From contig SVOH01000007.1 in the NCBI GenBank assembly GCA_015066515.1, positions 1-64,000 on the forward strand: a stretch of 64,000 nt of DNA, written 5' to 3'. The position numbers and the translations under genes are program-made. Every line of letters starts with the position of its first letter. Position 1 is the first letter of the stretch. Under the pieces are notes generated by a model. That model saw nothing but the letters and a program-made list of their open reading frames with translations. It did no database searches and had not been told where the DNA came from. This document shows positions 35,141-46,945 of the stretch, piece after piece. The stretch comes from Oscillospiraceae bacterium. Its GTDB lineage: Bacteria; Bacillota; Clostridia; Oscillospirales; Acutalibacteraceae.

Positions 35141-35193
35141 AAGAAAGGTTTGGCGGAAAATAGCATCGTCCGGTGTGGTTTTCCGCTTTCTTT
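35141..35193 (+). other. Inverted repeat / stem-loop in ackA-galK intergenic region
   Basis: GCGGAAAA(35153-35160)/TTTTCCGC(35179-35186), outer AAGAAAG/CTTTCTTT. Confidence 0.75.
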
Positions 35194-35199
35194 GATAAT

Positions 35200-36477
35200 A
35201 TGAATATTTCAGAACTTAAACAAAACATACAAAACGGAAAATTTGACAAAGAATTTACAATGCTTTACGGTGATGTTGTTGTTGCCAAAGAACGTTACAT
35301 CGAGGCTGTAGATGAGTTTGTAAATTTATACGGTGACCGCAATAATATACGTCTTTTCTCGGCCCCCGGTCGTACCGAGGTTGGTGGTAATCATACCGAC
35401 CATCAGCACGGTCGTGTGCTTGCTGGTAGTGTTAATCTTGACATAATTGCAGTAGTAGCGCAAAACGATGACAACATTGTCCGTATTAAGTCAAAGGGTT
35501 ATAATATGGACGAGGTCGATGTTTCTGACCTTGATAAAAAAGAGACCGAGCAGGGCAGAGCGCGTTCGCTTATACGCGGTGTAATGGCAGCCTTTAAAAA
35601 CGGCGGTTATAATGTTGGCGGTTTTGATGCCTATACCACATCAAACGTGCTTAAAGGCTCGGGGCTTTCATCCTCGGCGGCATTTGAAGTACTTGTGTCA
35701 AACGTTGTGAACGGTCTATATAATGACGCAAAGGTCGATGCGGTAACTATGGCAAAATACTCGCAGTTTGCCGAGTGTGAATATTTTGGCAAACCTTGCG
35801 GACTGCTTGACCAAATGGCATCAAGCGTGGGCGGCTTTACCTATGCCGATTTTTGTGACCCACAAAACCCGATTGTTGATAAAATAAGTATCGATTTAAA
35901 CGAGTCCGATCATACGCTTTGCGTTGTCGACACGGGCGGAAATCACGCAAATTTAACGCAGGATTATGCCGATATTACACTTGAGTGTAGGGCTGTTTCA
36001 AACGCCTTGGGTGTAGAGTTTTTGCGTGACGCAAGCATGGATGATTTTTATAAAAATTATGCTCAAATTCGTCAACAATGCGGTGACCGAGCAATGCTTC
36101 GTGCTATGCATTTCTTTAACGAAAACGAGCGTGTTTTAACCCAAAAATCCGCACTTCGCCGTGGCGATTTTAATACGTTTTTTGTAACTGTTAAACGTTC
36201 GGGCGAATCATCTTATGACCTATTGCAAAACGTATATTCGCCATCTAATCCACGCGAGCAGGCCATATCTGTAGCGCTTGCTCTTACAAAGCAATTTTTA
36301 AACGGTCGCGGTGCTTATCGTGTTCACGGTGGTGGTTTTGCGGGCACTATTCAGTGTTATATACCAAACAAGATGTTTGATGATTATAAGCAAATGATAG
36401 AATCTGTGTTTGGCGAGGGTTCTTGTGTTAAGTTGTTTGTTCGTGCAGTAGGCGGATATGAGCTAAAGGGTGAATAA
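35200..36477 (+). CDS. galK: Galactokinase (GHMP kinase, GRTEVGGNHTDHQHG variant)
   Basis: FSAPGRTEVGGNHTDHQHGRVLAG, GSGLSSSAAFE, GGGFAGTIQCY. Confidence 0.88.
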   Translation: MNISELKQNIQNGKFDKEFTMLYGDVVVAKERYIEAVDEFVNLYGDRNNIRLFSAPGRTEVGGNHTDHQHGRVLAGSVNLDIIAVVAQNDDNIVRIKSKGYNMDEVDVSDLDKKETEQGRARSLIRGVMAAFKNGGYNVGGFDAYTTSNVLKGSGLSSSAAFEVLVSNVVNGLYNDAKVDAVTMAKYSQFAECEYFGKPCGLLDQMASSVGGFTYADFCDPQNPIVDKISIDLNESDHTLCVVDTGGNHANLTQDYADITLECRAVSNALGVEFLRDASMDDFYKNYAQIRQQCGDRAMLRAMHFFNENERVLTQKSALRRGDFNTFFVTVKRSGESSYDLLQNVYSPSNPREQAISVALALTKQFLNGRGAYRVHGGGFAGTIQCYIPNKMFDDYKQMIESVFGEGSCVKLFVRAVGGYELKGE

Positions 36478-37198
36478 TATGACCGAAAGTATTTGGAACG
36501 GATTTAAGCGCCTTGACTTTCAGTTTGAAGGCAGGGATTGTATTCTTGTTTGTCCCGACAGTGCGTGTGAAGGCAATAAATGGCTATATCGCACCGAATA
36601 TTTTGGTGCTTTTCCTGATTTGGAATTAGCAATGCTAAAAGAGGGTTACCATTTGGCTTATATGCAAAACACAACACGTTTGTGCCCCGAGAGTGATACC
36701 GATATGCGACCTAAGTTTTGCGATTATTTGAGTGAGCAATTTGGTCTTAATAAAAAATGCGCGCTTGTTGGTATGAGCTGTGGTGGTATGCAGGCAGTAT
36801 ATTTTGCCGCAAAATACCCACAGTATGTAGCGTGTGCTTATCTTGATGCACCTGTTATGAACTACTTAAGTTGGCCTTTCGCTTTAGGTATAGGTCAAAA
36901 TGATTGTTCTCAAGAATTTATAGATAATATGGGAATTGGATTGTCAGAACTAATTAATTTTAGAAATCATCCGATAGACCAAAAAGAAAACCTGCTTAAA
37001 TCGGGTATACCGATAATGTTGATTTCAGGCGATAGCGACAAAACAGTACCGTTTTGTGAAAACGGACAGCTTTTGTGGGATTATTACAGGGCTAACAATG
37101 CCCAAATTGAAGTAATAATTAAGCCGGGCGGCGACCATCATCCGCACGGTTTATCTGATAACACACCAATTGTTAAATTTATACAAAGGTATTATTAA
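36470..37198 (+). CDS. Alpha/beta hydrolase
   Basis: ALVGMSCGGMQAVYFAAKYP nucleophile elbow; catalytic GGDHHPHG; overlaps galK end. Confidence 0.8.
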   Translation: MNNMTESIWNGFKRLDFQFEGRDCILVCPDSACEGNKWLYRTEYFGAFPDLELAMLKEGYHLAYMQNTTRLCPESDTDMRPKFCDYLSEQFGLNKKCALVGMSCGGMQAVYFAAKYPQYVACAYLDAPVMNYLSWPFALGIGQNDCSQEFIDNMGIGLSELINFRNHPIDQKENLLKSGIPIMLISGDSDKTVPFCENGQLLWDYYRANNAQIEVIIKPGGDHHPHGLSDNTPIVKFIQRYY

Positions 37199-37232
37199 AT
37201 TAAATTAAATCCGCCAAAGTCGGATTTAACTC

Positions 37233-37260
37233 AAAAAATCCTCGTTCAGAGGATTTTTTT
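37233..37260 (+). terminator. Intrinsic terminator
   Basis: AAAAAATCCTC/GAGGATTTTTTT. Confidence 0.9.
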
Positions 37261-37434
37261 GTTTGCAAGTATTTACTACGGCGAAATGCAAGTATGTACT
37301 ACAATCTTGTTGTTATCTTGCACAAAAAAGTAATTGCATTTTTTCTTGTTTTTTACACTTGCGAACTTGAAAAATTTTTTAAATGTGATATAATTTACTA
37401 TGTACAATTATTTATAAGGAGAGGAGTTTTTCTT

Positions 37435-40400
37435 ATGAAGAAAACAATCCAAAAATTACTTTCAGTTGTTTTGGTAATGGCTATCTGTATTAGCGCTGTT
37501 TGTGCATGCCTTATTACAGTAAATGCTGCAGATACAAGTGCTACCTACACCATAACTGCTGAGTCATTACACGCTTATGCCGACGAGGGCAAGGCTACTA
37601 TGACATTTAATCTTGATAGCGGTTTTACAAGCGGTAGTTTTACACTGCTTAAAGACAACGCGTCATTTAACGTTAATTATGATAAGGAAGGCAATCTAAT
37701 ACCTCCTTCACCGTGGAACTCTGAATACGGCGACGTTGAGATTGAGGTTGTTGGAGGTACTACAGTAGATGGTACTGCGTTAACAGCAGACCAAATGGCT
37801 GTAACTATTTTTAACGATACTAACAACAATGGTAAAAACGATGCTGAAGAAGAGGGCGACGTTAGATCTTCAAACAATGCGTTATGGTATGACAAGCCTG
37901 TTAGCGAAGGTGGCACACATAAAGATGCCGACGGTAACGAATTTGATTTCGTACCAGACGTAATCACTAATCGTTTTGAAACCTACAGACTTTCAAACAT
38001 TTCTTTTGATAGTGGTGACGTTGTATACAAGAGCCTTACTTTAGAGTTTACATTTGAGTGGGACTATTGTATGCAGCCAAACTCAAAGAACGAAATTATA
38101 TTTGCTCAAGAAGGTCAAACAGACCACTTAGGTAATGAATATTCAGCACCTGTTCTTAAAAACGGTGAAACAAGTTACGTTCTTTCTGAAAATGTAGTTG
38201 AAGGAAATGTAAACTATTTCCATTCACACTGTGCAAAGAATATTGATACTAATACACAGTTGTTACAAAAGAACGAATATGGTGTATATTCATGCGTATG
38301 TGACTTGTGCGGTAAGGCAGGAATTCAACTTTTTCCTGATGATATAGCAGGCACAAAGACAAACGCGTATTACGATATATCTGCAATGAATATTGTGTAT
38401 GAAGATGACGGTACTGTTTCACTAAACGTTCACTGTCCTGGATTTCAAGCAACAAAAGAAAAGCTTGTTATAAGCTATACAAATGGTAAGAAAACCATTT
38501 ATGGCGATAACAAGACAAGTGAAATGGTCGGCAATACTAGTATGGAATTATCTCCATATGCAAAAGAGAAGGTAATAAAGGATGACGGTACTTTTTATTA
38601 CCTTGATAACGTTCTTCCGGCAGACACATATATGTATGTAATAAAGGGCCTTTCGGCAAAAGATATTGGTACTAAATTTTATATCACCCGTATTGTCGAG
38701 GGCAGTGGCGAACAATACGATGGTAAATTATTTGCAGGTAATACTCAAGAAATATCTTTGGTGGATTATTGCTCCGGCGTAGTAGGCGGTACAAAGGTTT
38801 ATTACCCTGAGGGCACTACCGAAGCACAAGTTAAAGCTGACAAGGCTGTTGCCGTAGCATTTATTAACTACGGTGCCGCAGCTGCAAATGCGCTCAATCA
38901 TAAGGTTTCTTACGAAAAAGAAGAAATCGTTACCACCGACACATGGGACGGTAACAAGACAGAACCAACTACCACAGACGAGGCAGGTAACATTATTATC
39001 AATACTGCCGAAGAGCTTGCATGGGTAGCGCTTCAGGGTGGTGACGCAACACAAAACGTTAACTACAAGGTTGTGGCAAACTCCGTATTTGATATGAAGG
39101 GTATGGAAGGCATTACCCTTTACTCTACTGCAGCACAGGTTAAAGCTGCTACAAAGACTACAAATTATTGGCGTCTTGCAGCAGATGGTTCTTCTCCTGC
39201 ATTCCAGGGTAACTTTGACGGTAATGGTCTTATCGTATATAACATTTATACAGGTACAGGTCGTAGTCATACCGGTTTATTCCCAGCAACACACTCTGTA
39301 GCGCAGGGTTCAATTACAATTGAAAATGTTTCTGTTGTATCATCACACGTTGGTGGCTACCACGGTGCAGGCGCTATTGTTGGTATAGCGAATACAAGCA
39401 ATACAAGCACAAAGATGTATTTTGATAATATTGCTGTTAAAAACTGCTATATCTACGATAATAATGACGCAAATACCACTAAAAAAATCGGTGGTACTTT
39501 AGTCGGTGAATTGGCACATAATGCTGCAACCATAAATAATTGTATTGCAGTTAATAACGTTATTGATTCACAGGGTATTAAGGGTGGTTTCTTTGGTAAC
39601 TCTTCAGATTACGCAGGTAAATCCACCGTTACCAATTCAATAACAATTGGTACAACAGCAGAACCTGTATCAATTAACACCGCTTTGGCTACTAAGGTTG
39701 CTACAACAACTTATACAAACGTTTATACCGACCAAGAAACTTCAACATCTGGTATTACAGTTCTTGACACTGCTAATATGAAGGGTTCTGCCGCCGAGAC
39801 CAATATGTCTGCTCTTGATTGGAATGGCACATGGGTAACAACTGATTCTTATCCTGAATTTAATCCCGACCTATACTGCACAGACGTATGGGATGGTACC
39901 AAGGTAGAGCCTACAGCAACCGACGCGGAAGGTAATATTATTATTAGTTCTGCAGAAGAGCTTGCTTGGGTAGCTCTTCAGGGTGGTAGTGCAACAAATG
40001 GTAAAAACTATAAGGTTGCAGACGGTATTAAGTACTTTAATATGAATGGTTCAGTAGGTATTAATGCTAACTCTACCGTATCAAATGTTAAATCAGCAAC
40101 TGCAACAGCAAATCTTTGGAATCATAGTGCTGATTTTACAGGCAACTTCGACGGTAATGGTGTTGTTGTTTATAACATTAGAAATGCAACAGGCCAAGCA
40201 TACGGTGGTTTGTTCCCACGTATTAATGGTGTCAATTCATCAATTAAAAACGTTACTGTAAAAGCATCTATTATTTATGCTTACCACGGTGCCGGCGCTA
40301 TTCTTGGTCAAGGCTCGGGACAATTTACAACCACAATTGATAATTGCGCAGTTGAGAATTGTTATATGACCGATAACAATAATACTAATACAGGTTGCCA

Positions 40401-42297
40401 AAGATCCGCAGGTATTTTTGTTGGTTCCAGTGCTAACCATTGTATAAAGATAAACAACTGCTTTGCCGCAGGTAACGAATGCTCGGGCGTTAATTCATAC
40501 GGTGGATTTGTTGGTAGAGCATCTGCATGGGCACCGGGTAATTTTACATTTACTAATACTGTTTCTTTAGGTATTTCACCATATACAACAGCGGGTGCCG
40601 GTGCTATTGGTGACGATATCGCTGTAAAGGCAACATGGACAAATGTTTATACTGATACTGATTTACCAAGTGGTGCATCTACAAACGCTGTAAATGGTAT
40701 CAAAAAACTTACAACTGCTCAAATGACAGGCGAGGCTGCAAAAGATAATATGCCCGCTCTTGCTTGGGGTGCTGAATGGTTTGAAGGTAAGACAGGCGAA
40801 TACCCATCAATTAATGGCGAGGTTTACGCGGACACTTGGGACGGTAAATTCTCAGAACCAACCGAAACTGATGTAGAAGGTAATATTATTATCAGAACTG
40901 CTGAACAGATGGCTTGGGTAGCCCTTCGCGGAGCAGCAACAACGGCTGGTAAGTCATATAAAGTTGCTGATGGCATTAAATACTTTAATATGAGCGGTGC
41001 TACAGGTGTTACTACCAATTCAACTGCGGCTGAGGTTAAAGCTGCTACTAAAACCACTAATTACTGGCGTTATGCTTCTGATGGCGGCAAAGATTACGCA
41101 TTCCAAGGTAACTTTGACGGTAACGATGTAACCATCTACAACATTTATGCTTACGGTTACGGTCACGGTGCTTTGTTCCCGTATGTATATAACGATTCTA
41201 CTATTGAAAACGTTACCATAAAGGCATCGTTCATTTCGGGTTATCACAATGCAGCCGGTATTGTTGGTAGTGGCGAATTAACAAAAACAATTAATATTAA
41301 CAAGTGCAATGTAGAAAATTGTTATATTACTGATAATGGCAATACAAACACCAGCTGTAAGAGAGCTGCTGCGCAGTTTATTGCAAGCACGGGTAACAGT
41401 AACGTTAATATTTCTAACTGCTTAGCTGCAAATAACACTATTTCGGCTGCAGGTTACGAGGCAGGCTTTGTTGCTACAACCGGTGAATATCAACCAAAGG
41501 GTACTTCCATTACAAATTCAATTTCAATTGGTGTTTATCCTTATTCTAATGCAAAAATTGGTTCTCTTGGTAAAGGTTTAAATGAAAAACTCACAGTAGA
41601 AAACGTTTATAGTGACGTTGTGTGTGATATTGATGGATTTATAAAAATTAATGCTGATGATGCTAAGGGTGAGGGTGCTTCTAATAAGTTATCAAATCTT
41701 GCTTGGGGTACCGTTTGGTTTACCGGCAAGCCCGGTGAGTATCCTTGCTTTGTGGATGACGGTGTTAAGTACGTGCCTGATGAAATTGAGGCATTGCTTG
41801 TAGCAAACGGCTATTACAGCAGTTTTATTGCAAACTTTGATAACACATATAACCGTGACAACTTTACAACAAGTGATGAAAATTGCAACTTCTATGCAAC
41901 CGGTCTTACTCTTAAGACCAATCCTTATATGACTGTTACATTTGCTTTTCTTGACAAGTATCGTAATGATAAGGCAAACGTTGAGGCTGTATTTACAGTA
42001 AACGGTCAAACTATAACCGTTAAGGGTAGCGAAATGGTTAACAATGAGGGTGCTGGTAGATATCATATGGTAAGACTTAAAGATATCGATGTTGCAAGCC
42101 TTTGTGACGATATAACCGTAACTCTTAAGTATAACGGCACACAAATAGGCACAGGTAGTATCAGTGTTGCAGGCTTTGGCTTTACAGCGGCTGATGCAGG
42201 CGATGGTTTTGAGTATTACGAAACAGCGGCGCAAGCACTTGTGTTCTACGCAGAAACATTACAAAACAAAATTGCCGTTACTACATGGCCGCAATAA
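37435..42297 (+). CDS. Large secreted repeat protein (beta-helix/GLUG-like repeats)
   Basis: Signal peptide MKKTIQKLLSVVLVMAICISAVCACLITVNAA, AAGGAGAGG SD, three long repeats; ORF-track start 37294 corrected to 37435. Confidence 0.85.
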   Translation: MKKTIQKLLSVVLVMAICISAVCACLITVNAADTSATYTITAESLHAYADEGKATMTFNLDSGFTSGSFTLLKDNASFNVNYDKEGNLIPPSPWNSEYGDVEIEVVGGTTVDGTALTADQMAVTIFNDTNNNGKNDAEEEGDVRSSNNALWYDKPVSEGGTHKDADGNEFDFVPDVITNRFETYRLSNISFDSGDVVYKSLTLEFTFEWDYCMQPNSKNEIIFAQEGQTDHLGNEYSAPVLKNGETSYVLSENVVEGNVNYFHSHCAKNIDTNTQLLQKNEYGVYSCVCDLCGKAGIQLFPDDIAGTKTNAYYDISAMNIVYEDDGTVSLNVHCPGFQATKEKLVISYTNGKKTIYGDNKTSEMVGNTSMELSPYAKEKVIKDDGTFYYLDNVLPADTYMYVIKGLSAKDIGTKFYITRIVEGSGEQYDGKLFAGNTQEISLVDYCSGVVGGTKVYYPEGTTEAQVKADKAVAVAFINYGAAAANALNHKVSYEKEEIVTTDTWDGNKTEPTTTDEAGNIIINTAEELAWVALQGGDATQNVNYKVVANSVFDMKGMEGITLYSTAAQVKAATKTTNYWRLAADGSSPAFQGNFDGNGLIVYNIYTGTGRSHTGLFPATHSVAQGSITIENVSVVSSHVGGYHGAGAIVGIANTSNTSTKMYFDNIAVKNCYIYDNNDANTTKKIGGTLVGELAHNAATINNCIAVNNVIDSQGIKGGFFGNSSDYAGKSTVTNSITIGTTAEPVSINTALATKVATTTYTNVYTDQETSTSGITVLDTANMKGSAAETNMSALDWNGTWVTTDSYPEFNPDLYCTDVWDGTKVEPTATDAEGNIIISSAEELAWVALQGGSATNGKNYKVADGIKYFNMNGSVGINANSTVSNVKSATATANLWNHSADFTGNFDGNGVVVYNIRNATGQAYGGLFPRINGVNSSIKNVTVKASIIYAYHGAGAILGQGSGQFTTTIDNCAVENCYMTDNNNTNTGCQRSAGIFVGSSANHCIKINNCFAAGNECSGVNSYGGFVGRASAWAPGNFTFTNTVSLGISPYTTAGAGAIGDDIAVKATWTNVYTDTDLPSGASTNAVNGIKKLTTAQMTGEAAKDNMPALAWGAEWFEGKTGEYPSINGEVYADTWDGKFSEPTETDVEGNIIIRTAEQMAWVALRGAATTAGKSYKVADGIKYFNMSGATGVTTNSTAAEVKAATKTTNYWRYASDGGKDYAFQGNFDGNDVTIYNIYAYGYGHGALFPYVYNDSTIENVTIKASFISGYHNAAGIVGSGELTKTININKCNVENCYITDNGNTNTSCKRAAAQFIASTGNSNVNISNCLAANNTISAAGYEAGFVATTGEYQPKGTSITNSISIGVYPYSNAKIGSLGKGLNEKLTVENVYSDVVCDIDGFIKINADDAKGEGASNKLSNLAWGTVWFTGKPGEYPCFVDDGVKYVPDEIEALLVANGYYSSFIANFDNTYNRDNFTTSDENCNFYATGLTLKTNPYMTVTFAFLDKYRNDKANVEAVFTVNGQTITVKGSEMVNNEGAGRYHMVRLKDIDVASLCDDITVTLKYNGTQIGTGSISVAGFGFTAADAGDGFEYYETAAQALVFYAETLQNKIAVTTWPQ
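38938..41760 (+). repeat. Three tandem ~945-bp intragenic repeats
   Basis: Units start at 38938, 39883 and 40831 with D.WDG...EPT.TD..GNIII.(T/S)AE..AWVAL(Q/R)G. Confidence 0.9.
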
Positions 42298-42325
42298 TTA
42301 CGATAATATAAAGGAGAAAAGTGAT

Positions 42326-42445
42326 ATGTTCCAGAAATCAAAAATTGAAATATATGAATTAGACCTTACAGATATTATCGTTACAAGCGACCCTAATGCT
42401 AACTTTGGCGATGAAGACGATGATATCGTAATCTGGCCTAGATAA
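42326..42445 (+). CDS. 39-aa acidic small protein
   Basis: AAGGAG SD, ATG 42326, MFQKSKIEIYELDLTDIIVTSDPNANFGDEDDDIVIWPR, followed by terminator. Confidence 0.7.
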   Translation: MFQKSKIEIYELDLTDIIVTSDPNANFGDEDDDIVIWPR

Positions 42446-42457
42446 AAGATAAAAATA

Positions 42458-42496
42458 ACGGCTGATTTGATTGTTCAAATCAGCCGTGTTTTTTAT
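42458..42496 (+). terminator. Intrinsic terminator
   Basis: ACGGCTGATTTGA-TTGT-TCAAATCAGCCGT then T-rich. Confidence 0.9.
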
Positions 42497-42510
42497 TTTA
42501 TGTATAAAAG

Positions 42511-42543
42511 AAAAGCACTTGAGTGTTACCTCAAGTGCTTTTG
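42511..42543. terminator. Terminator of rhaB (bidirectional-looking)
   Basis: AAAAGCACTTGAG/CTCAAGTGCTTTT. Confidence 0.85.
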
Positions 42544-42552
42544 TTATTATCA

Positions 42553-44019
42553 TTAAAGTCCTGTTGCTTTTAGATAGTCGGCATAGGCCTTTTCCCAAAG
42601 TGCATTTTCATTCGGTGTGTAGGTCTTGATTTCGGTAGAGTTTGAAACAACCTTACGTAGCTCGGTAAAGTCTTTAATCTCGCCCAAAGCATTAAATGCA
42701 ACGCCAATGTTACCCATAACTGTCGCTTCGGTAGGACCAGCCAAAACAGGCACGTTACAAGCGTCACTTGTCATCTGGCAAAGGAGTCGGTCTTTAATAC
42801 CGCCGCCTAAAATATTGATGCTGTGATACTTCTTTTCGCCCATATTATTTAGTGCGTTAAAGGTGTATTTGTATTTCATAGCAAGGCTTTGGTAGATACA
42901 GCGCATAACCTCGCCGCGAGTTTGTGGAACGTATTGACCAGTTTTTTCGCAGTACTCTTTTACTCTGAGTGGCAGATTGCCTGCAGGCTCAAACGCAGGG
43001 TCGTCTACGTTGATAAAGCACTTAAATGGCTCGGCGGCAAGGGCCTCTTTTTCAAGCACGTCAAAGCCAACCTCTTCGCCTTCACGACGGAACTGACGGC
43101 GTGATTCTTGTATAAGCCAAAGACCCATAATGTTTTTAAGGAAACGGGTGGTGTCCTCAAAACCACCTTCGTTTGTAAAGTCAGCCTTGGCAGCTTCGGC
43201 AGTAAGGATAGGAGTTTTGCTTTCAATACCAAAAAGACTCCAAGTGCCGCAAGAAATATAAACAAAGTCATCACGCTCGCTGGGTGTTGCAGCTACGGCA
43301 GATGCAGTGTCGTGCGATGCAACTGCAATTACGGGAACCTTGGCACAACCAAGTTCTTCGCAAATTTCGTCAGAAAGATAACCGTAAACGCTACCAGGTT
43401 TTGTAATAGGAGCAAAAATTTTCTTTGGTAGGCCTAACTGCTCAATAAGCTCAAAATCCCAGTCTTTTGTATAAGGGTTAAGCAGATTAGAGGTAGAGGC
43501 GATGGTAGCTTCTTCCTTCATTTCGCCTGTAAGCATATAGCCGAAAAGGTCAGGCATCATAAGCATTTTTTCTGCGCGATCTAATACATCTGGCTCGTTA
43601 AATTTGAAGTACATTAACTGATAAATTGTGTTAAAATGAATAAACTGCAAACCGGCCTTGCTGTAAAGGTCATCTTTAGAGATAATTTCAAAAACCTTTT
43701 CAGGTATTTTGTGGGTGCGGCTATCACGGTAGTGATATGGGTTTGCAAGCATACGACCGTTTTTATCAAGTAGGCCAAAGTCAACACCCCAAGTATCTAT
43801 ACTGATAGCATCAAAACCGCCTTCATTAACAGCCTTGGTAATGCCCGACTTAATTTCAAAGAAAAGACGAAGCACATCCCAATACATACTGCCTCTGACA
43901 ACCACAGGGTCATTAGCAAAGCGGTGAATTTCTTTCATTACTATTTTTCCGTCTTCAAGAGTAGAAAGCATTGCGCGACCGCTTGAAGCGCCAAAGTCAA
44001 AAGCGAGAACTTTTTTCAT
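42553..44019 (-). CDS. rhaB: Rhamnulokinase
   Basis: AFDFGASSGRAML, SIDTWGVDFGLLD, HFNTIYQL, SCGTWSLFGIE. Confidence 0.95.
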   Translation of the reverse strand: MKKVLAFDFGASSGRAMLSTLEDGKIVMKEIHRFANDPVVVRGSMYWDVLRLFFEIKSGITKAVNEGGFDAISIDTWGVDFGLLDKNGRMLANPYHYRDSRTHKIPEKVFEIISKDDLYSKAGLQFIHFNTIYQLMYFKFNEPDVLDRAEKMLMMPDLFGYMLTGEMKEEATIASTSNLLNPYTKDWDFELIEQLGLPKKIFAPITKPGSVYGYLSDEICEELGCAKVPVIAVASHDTASAVAATPSERDDFVYISCGTWSLFGIESKTPILTAEAAKADFTNEGGFEDTTRFLKNIMGLWLIQESRRQFRREGEEVGFDVLEKEALAAEPFKCFINVDDPAFEPAGNLPLRVKEYCEKTGQYVPQTRGEVMRCIYQSLAMKYKYTFNALNNMGEKKYHSINILGGGIKDRLLCQMTSDACNVPVLAGPTEATVMGNIGVAFNALGEIKDFTELRKVVSNSTEIKTYTPNENALWEKAYADYLKATGL

Positions 44020-44123
44020 AAAGAACCCTCCAATAAAATATTTACTTTATAAATATATCAAATAATTTTGAGTTTGTCTACATCTTACTTGTAAAAATTT
44101 GTATTTAGCAGTATAATTGGATT

Positions 44124-45155
44124 ATGGATTTATGGAATTATTTAAAACAAACTAAAAAACCCATTGTGCTTTACGGTATGGGTAACGGCGCCGATAAGAT
44201 TATATCGGTGCTTAATAGGTATGGTATAAAGGTATCAGGTGTGTTTGCATCTGACGGTTTTGTGCGCGAAAAATATTTTCACGGCTTTAAGGTAACCGAC
44301 TACAAAACCGCAAAGGAAGCCTTTGGCGATATGGTGGTGCTTGTATGCTTTGGCAGCGGCTTGCCTGATGTAATTACTAATATTAAAAAAATTGCTGCCG
44401 AACAAGAATTGTATGCACCGGACGTGCCTGTTTATGGTGACATTTTATTTAACGAGCAATATGCGCGTGATAACAAAGAGCAGTTAGAGAGTGTGTATAA
44501 TCGACTTGCCGACGAAACATCTAAACGTGTTTTTGAAAATGCAGTTATGTATAAGCTGACAGGTAAAACAGATTATCTTTTTGACTGTGAAACATTGCCG
44601 CAAGAGATTTATGAAAATATATTGTATTTAAGTGAAGATGAAGTGTATTTTGATTTAGGTGCTTATCGTGGTGATACCGTAGAGGAGTTTTTGTCGGTTG
44701 TAAGCTGTTATAAAAAAATAATTGCTGTTGAGCCCGATTTTAAAACCTATAATAAATTGTGTGTAGCAACAGAAAAAGTTAGAGATATTACTAACATAAA
44801 CGCATGTGTTAGTGACGTAGACGGTGAGATAGAATTTGAAATGAATGGTTCTCGCGGCTCTACAATAGGAAAAGGTAAGGACATTATAGATTCGGTTACT
44901 GTTGACTCGCTTTCAAAAATAGCGGTCCCTTCTTATATTAAAATGGATATTGAAGGTGCAGAGGTAGCCGCTATAAAGGGCGGTGCTCATACAATAACAA
45001 ATTACAAACCTAAAATGCAAATTGCCTCTTATCATAGAAGTGAAGACTTATTTTTGATACCAAAAGAAGTATTAAAAATTTGTCCTGATTATAAAATTTA
45101 TTTACGCCATTTTCCATCACTTCCGTGTTGGGATATGTCATATTATTTTGTATAA
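44124..45155 (+). CDS. FkbM family methyltransferase with N-terminal Rossmann-like domain
   Basis: VYFDLGAYRGDTVEEF, KMDIEGAEVAAIKGG. Confidence 0.87.
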   Translation: MDLWNYLKQTKKPIVLYGMGNGADKIISVLNRYGIKVSGVFASDGFVREKYFHGFKVTDYKTAKEAFGDMVVLVCFGSGLPDVITNIKKIAAEQELYAPDVPVYGDILFNEQYARDNKEQLESVYNRLADETSKRVFENAVMYKLTGKTDYLFDCETLPQEIYENILYLSEDEVYFDLGAYRGDTVEEFLSVVSCYKKIIAVEPDFKTYNKLCVATEKVRDITNINACVSDVDGEIEFEMNGSRGSTIGKGKDIIDSVTVDSLSKIAVPSYIKMDIEGAEVAAIKGGAHTITNYKPKMQIASYHRSEDLFLIPKEVLKICPDYKIYLRHFPSLPCWDMSYYFV

Positions 45156-45160
45156 TGTAA

Positions 45161-45208
45161 AAAAATGCCGTTTTATTGTGATTTTGCACAATATGAGCGG
45201 CATTTTTG
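45161..45208 (+). terminator. Intrinsic terminator
   Basis: AAAAATGCCG...ATTGTG/CACAAT...CGGCATTTTT. Confidence 0.85.
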
Positions 45209-45209
45209 C

Positions 45210-45238
45210 TTGACACAGTATAAATATAGTGGTAAAAT
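45210..45238 (+). promoter_or_regulatory. Promoter of rny
   Basis: TTGACA-N17-TAAAAT. Confidence 0.8.
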
Positions 45239-45391
45239 TATGAAAGATAAGTTTAGATTGTATTGGTGGAAGTTTTGGCGAAATTCCACAGGTACCCCTA
45301 ATATTTATTGAACCGGGGGAAACAGCGGTCCCCGACAGAGTTTTATTTTCACATCTGTAAAACCGCTTTATTATATAAAGGAGGGATTTAA

Positions 45392-46945
45392 GTGCCCGAT
45401 ATTACCACATTGTTAATATCCGGTGGTGTTGCGCTGGTTGTTGGTGTTATTGGTTTTTTTGTGGGCTCGGCCGTTCGTAAGCATTCTGCAGAAAAGACCA
45501 TCGGCTCTGCCGAAACCGAAGCAAAACGCATACTTAATGATGCAATGAAAACCGCCGAAACACGCAAAAAAGAAACATTGCTCGAAGCAAAAGAGGAAAT
45601 TCATCAGCTTCGTCAAGATACCGAAAAGGACCTTCGCGAAAGAAGAGCCGAGGTACAACGACAAGAGCATCGTCTTCAGCAAAAGGAAGAAACCCTTGAC
45701 CGCAAGATAGACAATCTTGAAGCAAAGGAAGAAAAATTACAAGAAAAAGCGAAACAAATCGACGAAAAAATTGAGGAGTGTGAACAACTCAAACGTAGTC
45801 AACTTGAAATGCTTGAAAAAATTTCAGGTCTTTCAAAGGAGCAGGCAAAAGCAAATCTTTTACAAATGTTAGAGGGTGAGCTTTCTCACGAAAAAGCTGT
45901 TAAAATTATGGAATTTGAACAGCAGACACGCGAAGAATCAGACAAACTTGCACGCGAGGTTATTGCACACGCAATTCAGCGCTGTGCGGCTGATCATTCA
46001 TCTGAAATTACTATATCGGTAGTACCGCTTCCAAACGATGAAATGAAGGGTCGTATCATTGGTCGTGAGGGTAGAAATATCCGTGCTATCGAAAACGCAA
46101 CAGGTGTTGACCTTATAATTGACGATACACCAGAGGCAATTACTGTATCAAGTTTTGAACCTATTCGCCGTGAAATTGCCCGTGTAACACTTGAAAAGTT
46201 AATAGTTGACGGTAGAATACATCCAGCAAGAATTGAAGAAACTGTTGCTAAGGCTACTGCCGAGGTTGAGGCTATAATCAAGCAGCAGGGCGAACGTGCA
46301 ATGGTGGAAAGTGGTGTTCACAATCTACATCCTGAGCTTGTTAAACTTCTTGGCCGTTTACATTTCCGTACAAGCTATGGTCAGAATGTTCTTAACCATT
46401 CACTAGAGGTTTGTTATCTTTCAGGACTTATTGCCGCAGAGCTTGGTGTTGATGTAACGCTTGCTAAACGTGCAGGTCTTTTACACGATATTGGTAAGGC
46501 AATTGACCACGAGCAAGAGGGTTCACATATTCAGCTTGGTGTAGAAGCCGCTAAAAAGTATCGCGAAACTGAAACTGTTGTTCATGCTATTCACGCTCAC
46601 CACGGTGATGTTGAGGCAAAAACCGTTATCGCTTGCATAGTTCAGGCGGCAGACGCAATTAGTGCCGCTCGTCCTGGTGCTAGACGTGAAAACATTGAAA
46701 GTTATATTAAGCGTCTTGAAAAGTTGGAGGAAATCGCCAAATCCTTTAACGGTGTTGAAGATTCTTATGCTATACAGGCAGGTCGCGAAATACGTATACT
46801 TGTTAAGCCAGAGACTGTAAATGATGACCAGATGGTTATTATGGCTCACGATATTGCTCAAAAAATTGAAAATGAGCTTGAGTATCCCGGTCAGGTTAAG
46901 GTTAACATTATCCGTGAAAGCAGAGCAATAGATTACGCAAAATAA
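45392..46945 (+). CDS. rny: Ribonuclease Y (GTG start)
   Basis: N-terminal TM, coiled coil, KH motif [31 protein letters not shown] domain [10 protein letters not shown]. Confidence 0.98.

Follow-up and report, generated by a model that had tools for sequence, protein, structure and literature searches.

A small peptide gene linked to secreted proteins in Clostridia as a probable RiPP-type precursor

A 39-codon gene directly behind a large secreted protein of an Oscillospiraceae bacterium probably encodes the precursor of a RiPP-type, enzyme-processed peptide, which resembles the LPP type (linear polyphosphorylated peptides, RiPPs of Bacillota; Popov et al. 2026, PMC13381572), is served in trans and is tied to secreted proteins. 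The gene lies in the window, by which we mean the whole 64,000-nucleotide stretch of DNA that was analysed. Our computations demonstrate that the gene is real and under selection, that the peptides have a leader and a tail, that the family is linked to processing genes and to secreted proteins, and that leaders covary with RREs. Binding, cutting, modification, phosphorylation, export and a joint function with the secreted protein are inferred, without bench data.

The peptide gene begins 28 nt past the stop codon of the secreted-protein gene (42295-42297). The coordinates confirm the ATG and AAGGAG site placed there by the earlier note, as well as the strong terminator that it had described behind the peptide; terminator-like sites numbered 4, against 0.4 expected from shuffles. 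The earlier note had also said that this frame is listed solely within a longer ORF, and a mechanical ORF of 93 aa with a GTG start (42164-42445) indeed conceals the peptide. The upstream protein, previously read as a triple-repeat secreted protein of about 1.6 kaa, comprises 1,620 aa from a likely start at 37435 with its own Shine-Dalgarno site. Direct alignment showed its three repeats to be 45-50% identical; BLASTP self-comparison did not show them, and Pfam and NCBIfam searches assigned the protein to no family. Across 35173-46945 the gene order is esterase, secreted protein, peptide, rhamnulokinase (minus strand), FkbM-like protein and RNase Y-like protein, names that rest on sequence recognition without a family search. 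This order is kept in G018:C32, G056:C15 and G004:C9, with the esterase checked in only some of them. In G001, a peptide of the same family lies immediately 3' of an FkbM-like gene.

Table 1. Features of the window locus and of the dispersed putative processing genes in the same genome (G000)
Feature	Position	Strand	Remarks
39-aa precursor peptide gene, MFQKSKIEIYELDLTDIIVTSDPNANFGDEDDDIVIWPR	42326..42445	+	ATG 42326, TAA 42443-42445
AAGGAG ribosome-binding site	42311..42316	+	similar sites at paralogs
Conserved leader half, residues 1-21	42326..42388	+	RRE-binding-like FxxSxIEI plus DIIVTS
Acidic tail DPNANFGDEDDDIVIWPR, candidate core peptide	42389..42442	+	exact cut site undetermined
Intrinsic terminator	42458..42487	+	13-bp stem, then GTTTTTT
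1,620-aa secreted protein	37435..42297	+	signal-peptide-like N-terminus; co-oriented upstream partner gene
Three repeats of ~300 aa in the secreted protein	38938..41700	+	starts 38938, 39883 and 40831; end approximate
C-terminal domain common to peptide-linked secreted proteins of the genus	41986..42294	+	
RRE and SpI pair	G000:C1:35405-36151		
HprK-like kinase	G000:C26:105034-105711		not adjacent to peptide
PF14907 nucleotidyltransferase	G000:C30:41663		not adjacent
RRE-like gene and ABC exporter	G000:C30, near 77.8-79.8 kb		

The 39-codon ORF is a genuine gene under purifying selection. The window's own genome (2.0 Mb in 41 contigs) carries six copies: the window copy, three near-identical ones and two distant ones found with a profile. 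The flanks of the paralogs (300 nt upstream, 200 nt downstream) are only about 50-60% identical, i.e. unrelated. The window and C14 copies differ by 6 synonymous and, by the counting method used, 1 nonsynonymous change, their proteins being identical. Within the genome, pS between paralogs is 0.27-0.50 while pN is 0-0.04. With eight copies compared, the leader has a pN/pS of 0.10 and the tail one of 0.09, as pairwise sums that are not independent of each other. The conservation exceeds chance, because near-identical paralogs have random flanks, pS is far greater than pN and homologs occur in 34 genera. With a long gene ahead of it and a terminator behind, the ORF could instead be spurious or a regulatory RNA, the conserved DNA being a 3' UTR element and no gene. 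The substitution pattern contradicts this: between the window and C24 copies, whose flanks are unrelated, there are 10 synonymous differences and no nonsynonymous one, and across the 34 genera the protein is conserved while the DNA varies. Shine-Dalgarno sites are also consistent across copies, and such a reading can practically be dismissed.

A homolog search and a selection check, on which the earlier note had let its peptide stand or fall, came out in its favour, with relatives in 50 of the 381 class genomes (up to 18 copies per genome) and a pN/pS of about 0.1. Matches of the 39-mer inside ORFs of about 445 aa were set aside as chance, being local, within long unrelated frames and absent with the profile. 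The peptide belongs to no Pfam or NCBIfam family, four relatives likewise had none in NCBIfam, and phage records gave no match to the peptide. We found no paper on these precursors, which is weak evidence of absence.

In an alignment of 34 diverse members, one Ser is invariant and Glu8 and Asp16 (window numbering) are nearly so. The consensus is approximately [F/Y]xx[P/A]x[I/V/L]E[I/V]...D[I/V][I/V]x[T/A]S, followed by a lineage-variable tail; in alignment A7, the Ser that closes DIIVTS in the window leader is invariant. The earlier note had proposed a "(D)II.TS core". The motif stands, as it is conserved in relatives, but it closes the leader or processing region and is not part of the product. 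Outside radical-SAM loci, tails average 18.6 residues with a net charge of -5.8. The chromosomal position of the window gene is conserved; there, leaders are 67-71% identical between G000 and G056 or G004, whereas tails are only 27-40% identical. Judged from these alignments, the leader persists from species to species and the tail is replaced. The tails of two G056 paralogs are 95% alike; those of G004 paralogs differ, so homogenisation is not universal. Two G045 members are nearly tail-less (TSAE and TASQ; L134 5125-5178 and L122 2117), ending at most two residues after TS, and one of them adjoins a radical-SAM gene. In a subfamily with tails like PTGPDPFPGEDDEF (L034, L069 and L097), a lipoprotein-like ORF begins just downstream, and the peptide is thus flanked by two exported proteins.

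The family is linked to a recurring set of putative processing genes. Several peptide loci have a PqqD-like gene and a signal-peptidase-like (SpI) gene nearby. About 13 genus genomes show the order secreted protein, peptide, [radical SAM/SPASM], HprK-like kinase, PqqD, SpI, subject to local rearrangement, and other genera and families (L191, L195, L197 and L198) show peptide, HprK, PqqD, SpI. In some of these other genera and families, a PF14907 nucleotidyltransferase comes after SpI; such a gene lies next to SpI in L218, L223 and L141 and was not found in 5 of the 12 genomes tested. Peptide and SpI co-occur in 45 class genomes, with 5 having the peptide only, 54 SpI only and 277 neither (Fisher p = 4e-25; neither this nor the covariation p-values below are corrected for shared ancestry). 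Among 70 genus genomes, PqqD is present in 67 and SpI in 62. The motifs GxSMxP, LHR and GD are invariant in 14 SpI sequences; the protein resembles SEC11-type signal peptidases, and its profile matches SEC11A/C. A contig scan with SpI returned close relatives only, from MAGs named "Clostridia bacterium", mostly of the ruminant gut.

The genome of the window has all parts of this kit, dispersed (Table 1). Because they adjoin none of the six peptide copies, kit and peptide are connected in this genome by homology only. On C30, a PqqD-like gene overlaps an MsbA-like ABC transporter (L109 7849-9761), apart from the other parts; the RRE of this candidate exporter locus lacks the counterpart of LppB Asn33. 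The HprK-like kinase of C26 lies directly behind a PGA_cap capsule-synthesis-like gene (L215 9032-11061).

The composition of the tails follows the neighbouring enzymes. Cys occurs in the tails of 11 of the 12 peptides beside a radical-SAM gene, against 0 of the 54 peptides elsewhere (p = 1e-11). The twelfth peptide, of 17 residues, stops just past the processing motif. Such confinement is what one would predict if the adjacent enzyme used the tail as its substrate. The combination of a Cys core and an adjacent radical-SAM maturase occurs in 11 sister loci and not in the window genome, which has no radical SAM of this type and no Cys in its 39-mer.

Leaders and RREs covary at a structurally defined contact. 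In the PDB, the RRE profile matched LppB and lasso RREs (solved proteins LppB, PbaB1 and TbiB1). Loss of Asn33 almost abolishes leader binding by LppB, and the solved LPP complex shows Asp70 bonded to the hydroxyl of the leader Tyr (PMC13381572). The counterpart of Asn33 is Asn in 46 of 46 SpI-linked RREs. The counterpart of Asp70 is Asp in 11 of 13 RREs paired with Tyr leaders (one His, one Gly) and Ser or Thr in all 8 paired with Phe leaders (p = 2e-4). This column separates the two groups completely and has the highest mutual information of the columns listed (0.96 bit; 87 tested); one other column, near the N-terminus, has a smaller single-residue p-value and less information. The pairs were hand-picked from the peptides to hand in each genome. 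Both pairings, Tyr-Asp and Phe-Ser/Thr, are present within one family (f40). The G034:C7 locus, which lies outside the covariation table, combines a Tyr leader with Asp in the adjacent RRE, while the same genome has Ser in its SpI-linked RRE and Phe in its other leaders. Asp70 itself is not retained in the window genus, which has Phe leaders and Ser/Thr in the RRE. In the absence of binding data, the covariation argues that these RREs may read these leaders.

The peptides are also paired with secreted proteins. In the window genome, exactly six proteins end in the C-terminal domain according to a domain profile, and every one of them has one of the six peptides directly behind it; G018 and G004 each have four domain proteins and four peptides. 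A domain protein at G034:C7 at first seemed to lack a peptide, and the DNA there reveals MNTENYNTPSAEVTLIAEDVILTSGGDSGVPLPPDLWD. The C-terminal domain is carried by many secreted proteins of the genus and belongs to no Pfam family. Its model, of low to medium confidence (mean pLDDT 69), has strands and a long C-terminal helix; no relative was found in the PDB by profile, and the model gave no significant fold match. Elsewhere in the class, the peptides again lie behind large ORFs of the same orientation, whose C-terminal domains are often different ones. Therefore, the pairing is with secreted proteins generally, and with the C-terminal domain in much of the window genus.

This pairing raises the possibility of a small unprocessed partner protein (an escort, chaperone or assembly factor of the secreted protein), with the RRE/SpI linkage being incidental. 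The one-to-one counts (six of six in the own genome, four of four in both G018 and G004) and the two nearly tail-less members would suit it, as would the correlation of domain subtype with peptide subtype within genomes (r = 0.77, permutation p = 2e-4), which could arise from whole-unit duplication alone. An unprocessed partner does not account for the recurrence of operons with RRE, SpI, HprK and radical SAM in unrelated families, the confinement of tail Cys to radical-SAM neighbourhoods or the leader-RRE covariation, and some members lie behind secreted proteins without the C-terminal domain. We regard it as unlikely. Several points still weigh against the RiPP precursor that we favour: in the window genome the processing genes adjoin no peptide copy, the leader of the 39-aa group departs from that of LPP, the nearly tail-less members are hard to reconcile with a required core, and no Ribo-seq, proteomics or biochemistry stands behind it.

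Another conceivable role is that of a secreted, pheromone-like signal, for which the same tail made from several loci would raise the dose. One genome does encode the same tail at several loci, and tails turn over between species while the leader stays constant. However, in the loci read we noticed neither a receptor nor a regulator next to the peptide, and the near-fixed coupling to large, structural-looking secreted proteins would be unusual for pheromones. A pheromone role seems very unlikely; it overlaps with the RiPP-type precursor, being one possible use of a processed tail.

In the literature searched, SpI-type RiPPs were described only in the LPP paper. The conserved LPP genes encode the RRE LppB, the SipW-like peptidase LppS, the HprK-like kinase LppK, a nucleotidyltransferase and an MsbA-like exporter; the leader reads YxxPxVLxHQxIxFETxxS, is cut after T-1, and Ser3 of the core is phosphorylated (PMC13381572). 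The system described here shares short precursors with a conserved N-terminal leader and a variable C-terminus, a discrete PqqD-like RRE beside a SipW/archaeal-type SpI leader peptidase (the C1 pair in the window genome), the Ser-His-Asp catalytic residues of SpI in the motifs given above, the HprK-like kinase, the PF14907-type nucleotidyltransferase and the conserved RRE Asn; for the MsbA-like exporter there is only the candidate on C30. The Ser lies 18-19 residues past the leader aromatic (18 in LPP, Y-16 to S3), and the first half of the leader motif, here [F/Y]xx[P/A]x[I/V/L]E, is inferred to correspond. In contrast, the second half is DIIxTS and not HQxIxFET, so that the full motif is not met, and leaders of the 39-aa group have Phe and Ser/Ala where LPP has Tyr and Pro. 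The Phe-Ser/Thr pairing of the window genus, the radical-SAM version with Cys tails and the short acidic cores are further differences. LPP clusters were reported in capsule loci (PMC13381572), whereas the precursors here are scattered behind secreted proteins. By analogy, the system would work like the LPP type; we do not claim formal membership, since the leader departs from LPP in its second half and the product chemistry is inferred only.

Other known systems are less close. Paeninodin-type lasso peptides share a discrete RRE, an HprK-like kinase, a nucleotidyltransferase and a related leader motif, but the RREs here keep Asn where paeninodin RREs have Gly (PMC13381572), and in the loci read we noticed neither a lasso cyclase nor a B2 cysteine peptidase, in the absence of a genome-wide search. 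Some loci combine a SPASM-type enzyme with a Cys precursor, as do radical-SAM/SPASM RiPPs (the TIGR04463 type, and ranthipeptide or sactipeptide relatives); however, the score is 148 bits against a family cut-off of 525, and the window genome lacks the enzyme. The nearest NCBIfam name for the kinase is the HprK-like ScmC of the SynChlorMet cassette, and those matched by the PqqD-like protein include ScmD, with scores far below the cut-offs.

We then propose a mechanistic model. In the cytoplasm, the PqqD-like RRE would bind the leader motif [F/Y]xx[P/A]x[I/V/L]EI, as inferred from homology and covariation, and present the DIIxTS segment to the SpI/SipW-like serine peptidase. The peptidase is inferred to cut at or next to xTS and so release the acidic tail, the exact bond being undetermined: counting from the leader aromatic would put the cut as many as three residues ahead of Ser, small residues at -3/-1 would put it directly behind Ser, and a cut just ahead of Ser would fit LPP chemistry (hydrophobic -3, Thr -1). 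The HprK-like kinase would probably phosphorylate the invariant Ser, to judge from its invariance and its similar spacing from the leader aromatic, and in sister lineages the radical-SAM/SPASM enzyme may act on the tail cysteines. Relying on gene pairing alone, it is tempting to speculate that the product is exported by the MsbA-like ABC transporter and used jointly with the secreted protein encoded just upstream.

Among the roles that the earlier note had offered, a RiPP-like precursor is well supported by the genomic evidence and fits best with the operons containing RRE, SpI and HprK, the Cys tails beside radical SAM and the leader-RRE covariation. The partner-peptide option also gains weight, with one peptide behind every C-terminal-domain protein of its own genome. 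New here are precursors that are scattered and linked to secreted proteins, the spread of these precursors across Clostridia, a branch with radical SAM and the pairing of Tyr with Asp and of Phe with Ser. More tentatively, there may be a Clostridia-wide RiPP-type class that acts with, or becomes joined to, large proteins that are secreted or on the surface, every such protein gene having its own species-specific precursor and all sharing one trans-acting RRE/SpI/kinase kit; we consider this possible but doubtful.

RiPP precursors are normally sought within biosynthetic clusters. Most precursors here lie far from the enzymes, behind ordinary-looking secreted proteins, and would be missed by cluster-based mining; simple ORF lists also conceal them. 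If our reading is true, the Tyr-Asp/Phe-Ser code would be a direct means to match precursors with RREs, and a peptide system tied to secreted proteins would be widespread among Clostridia.
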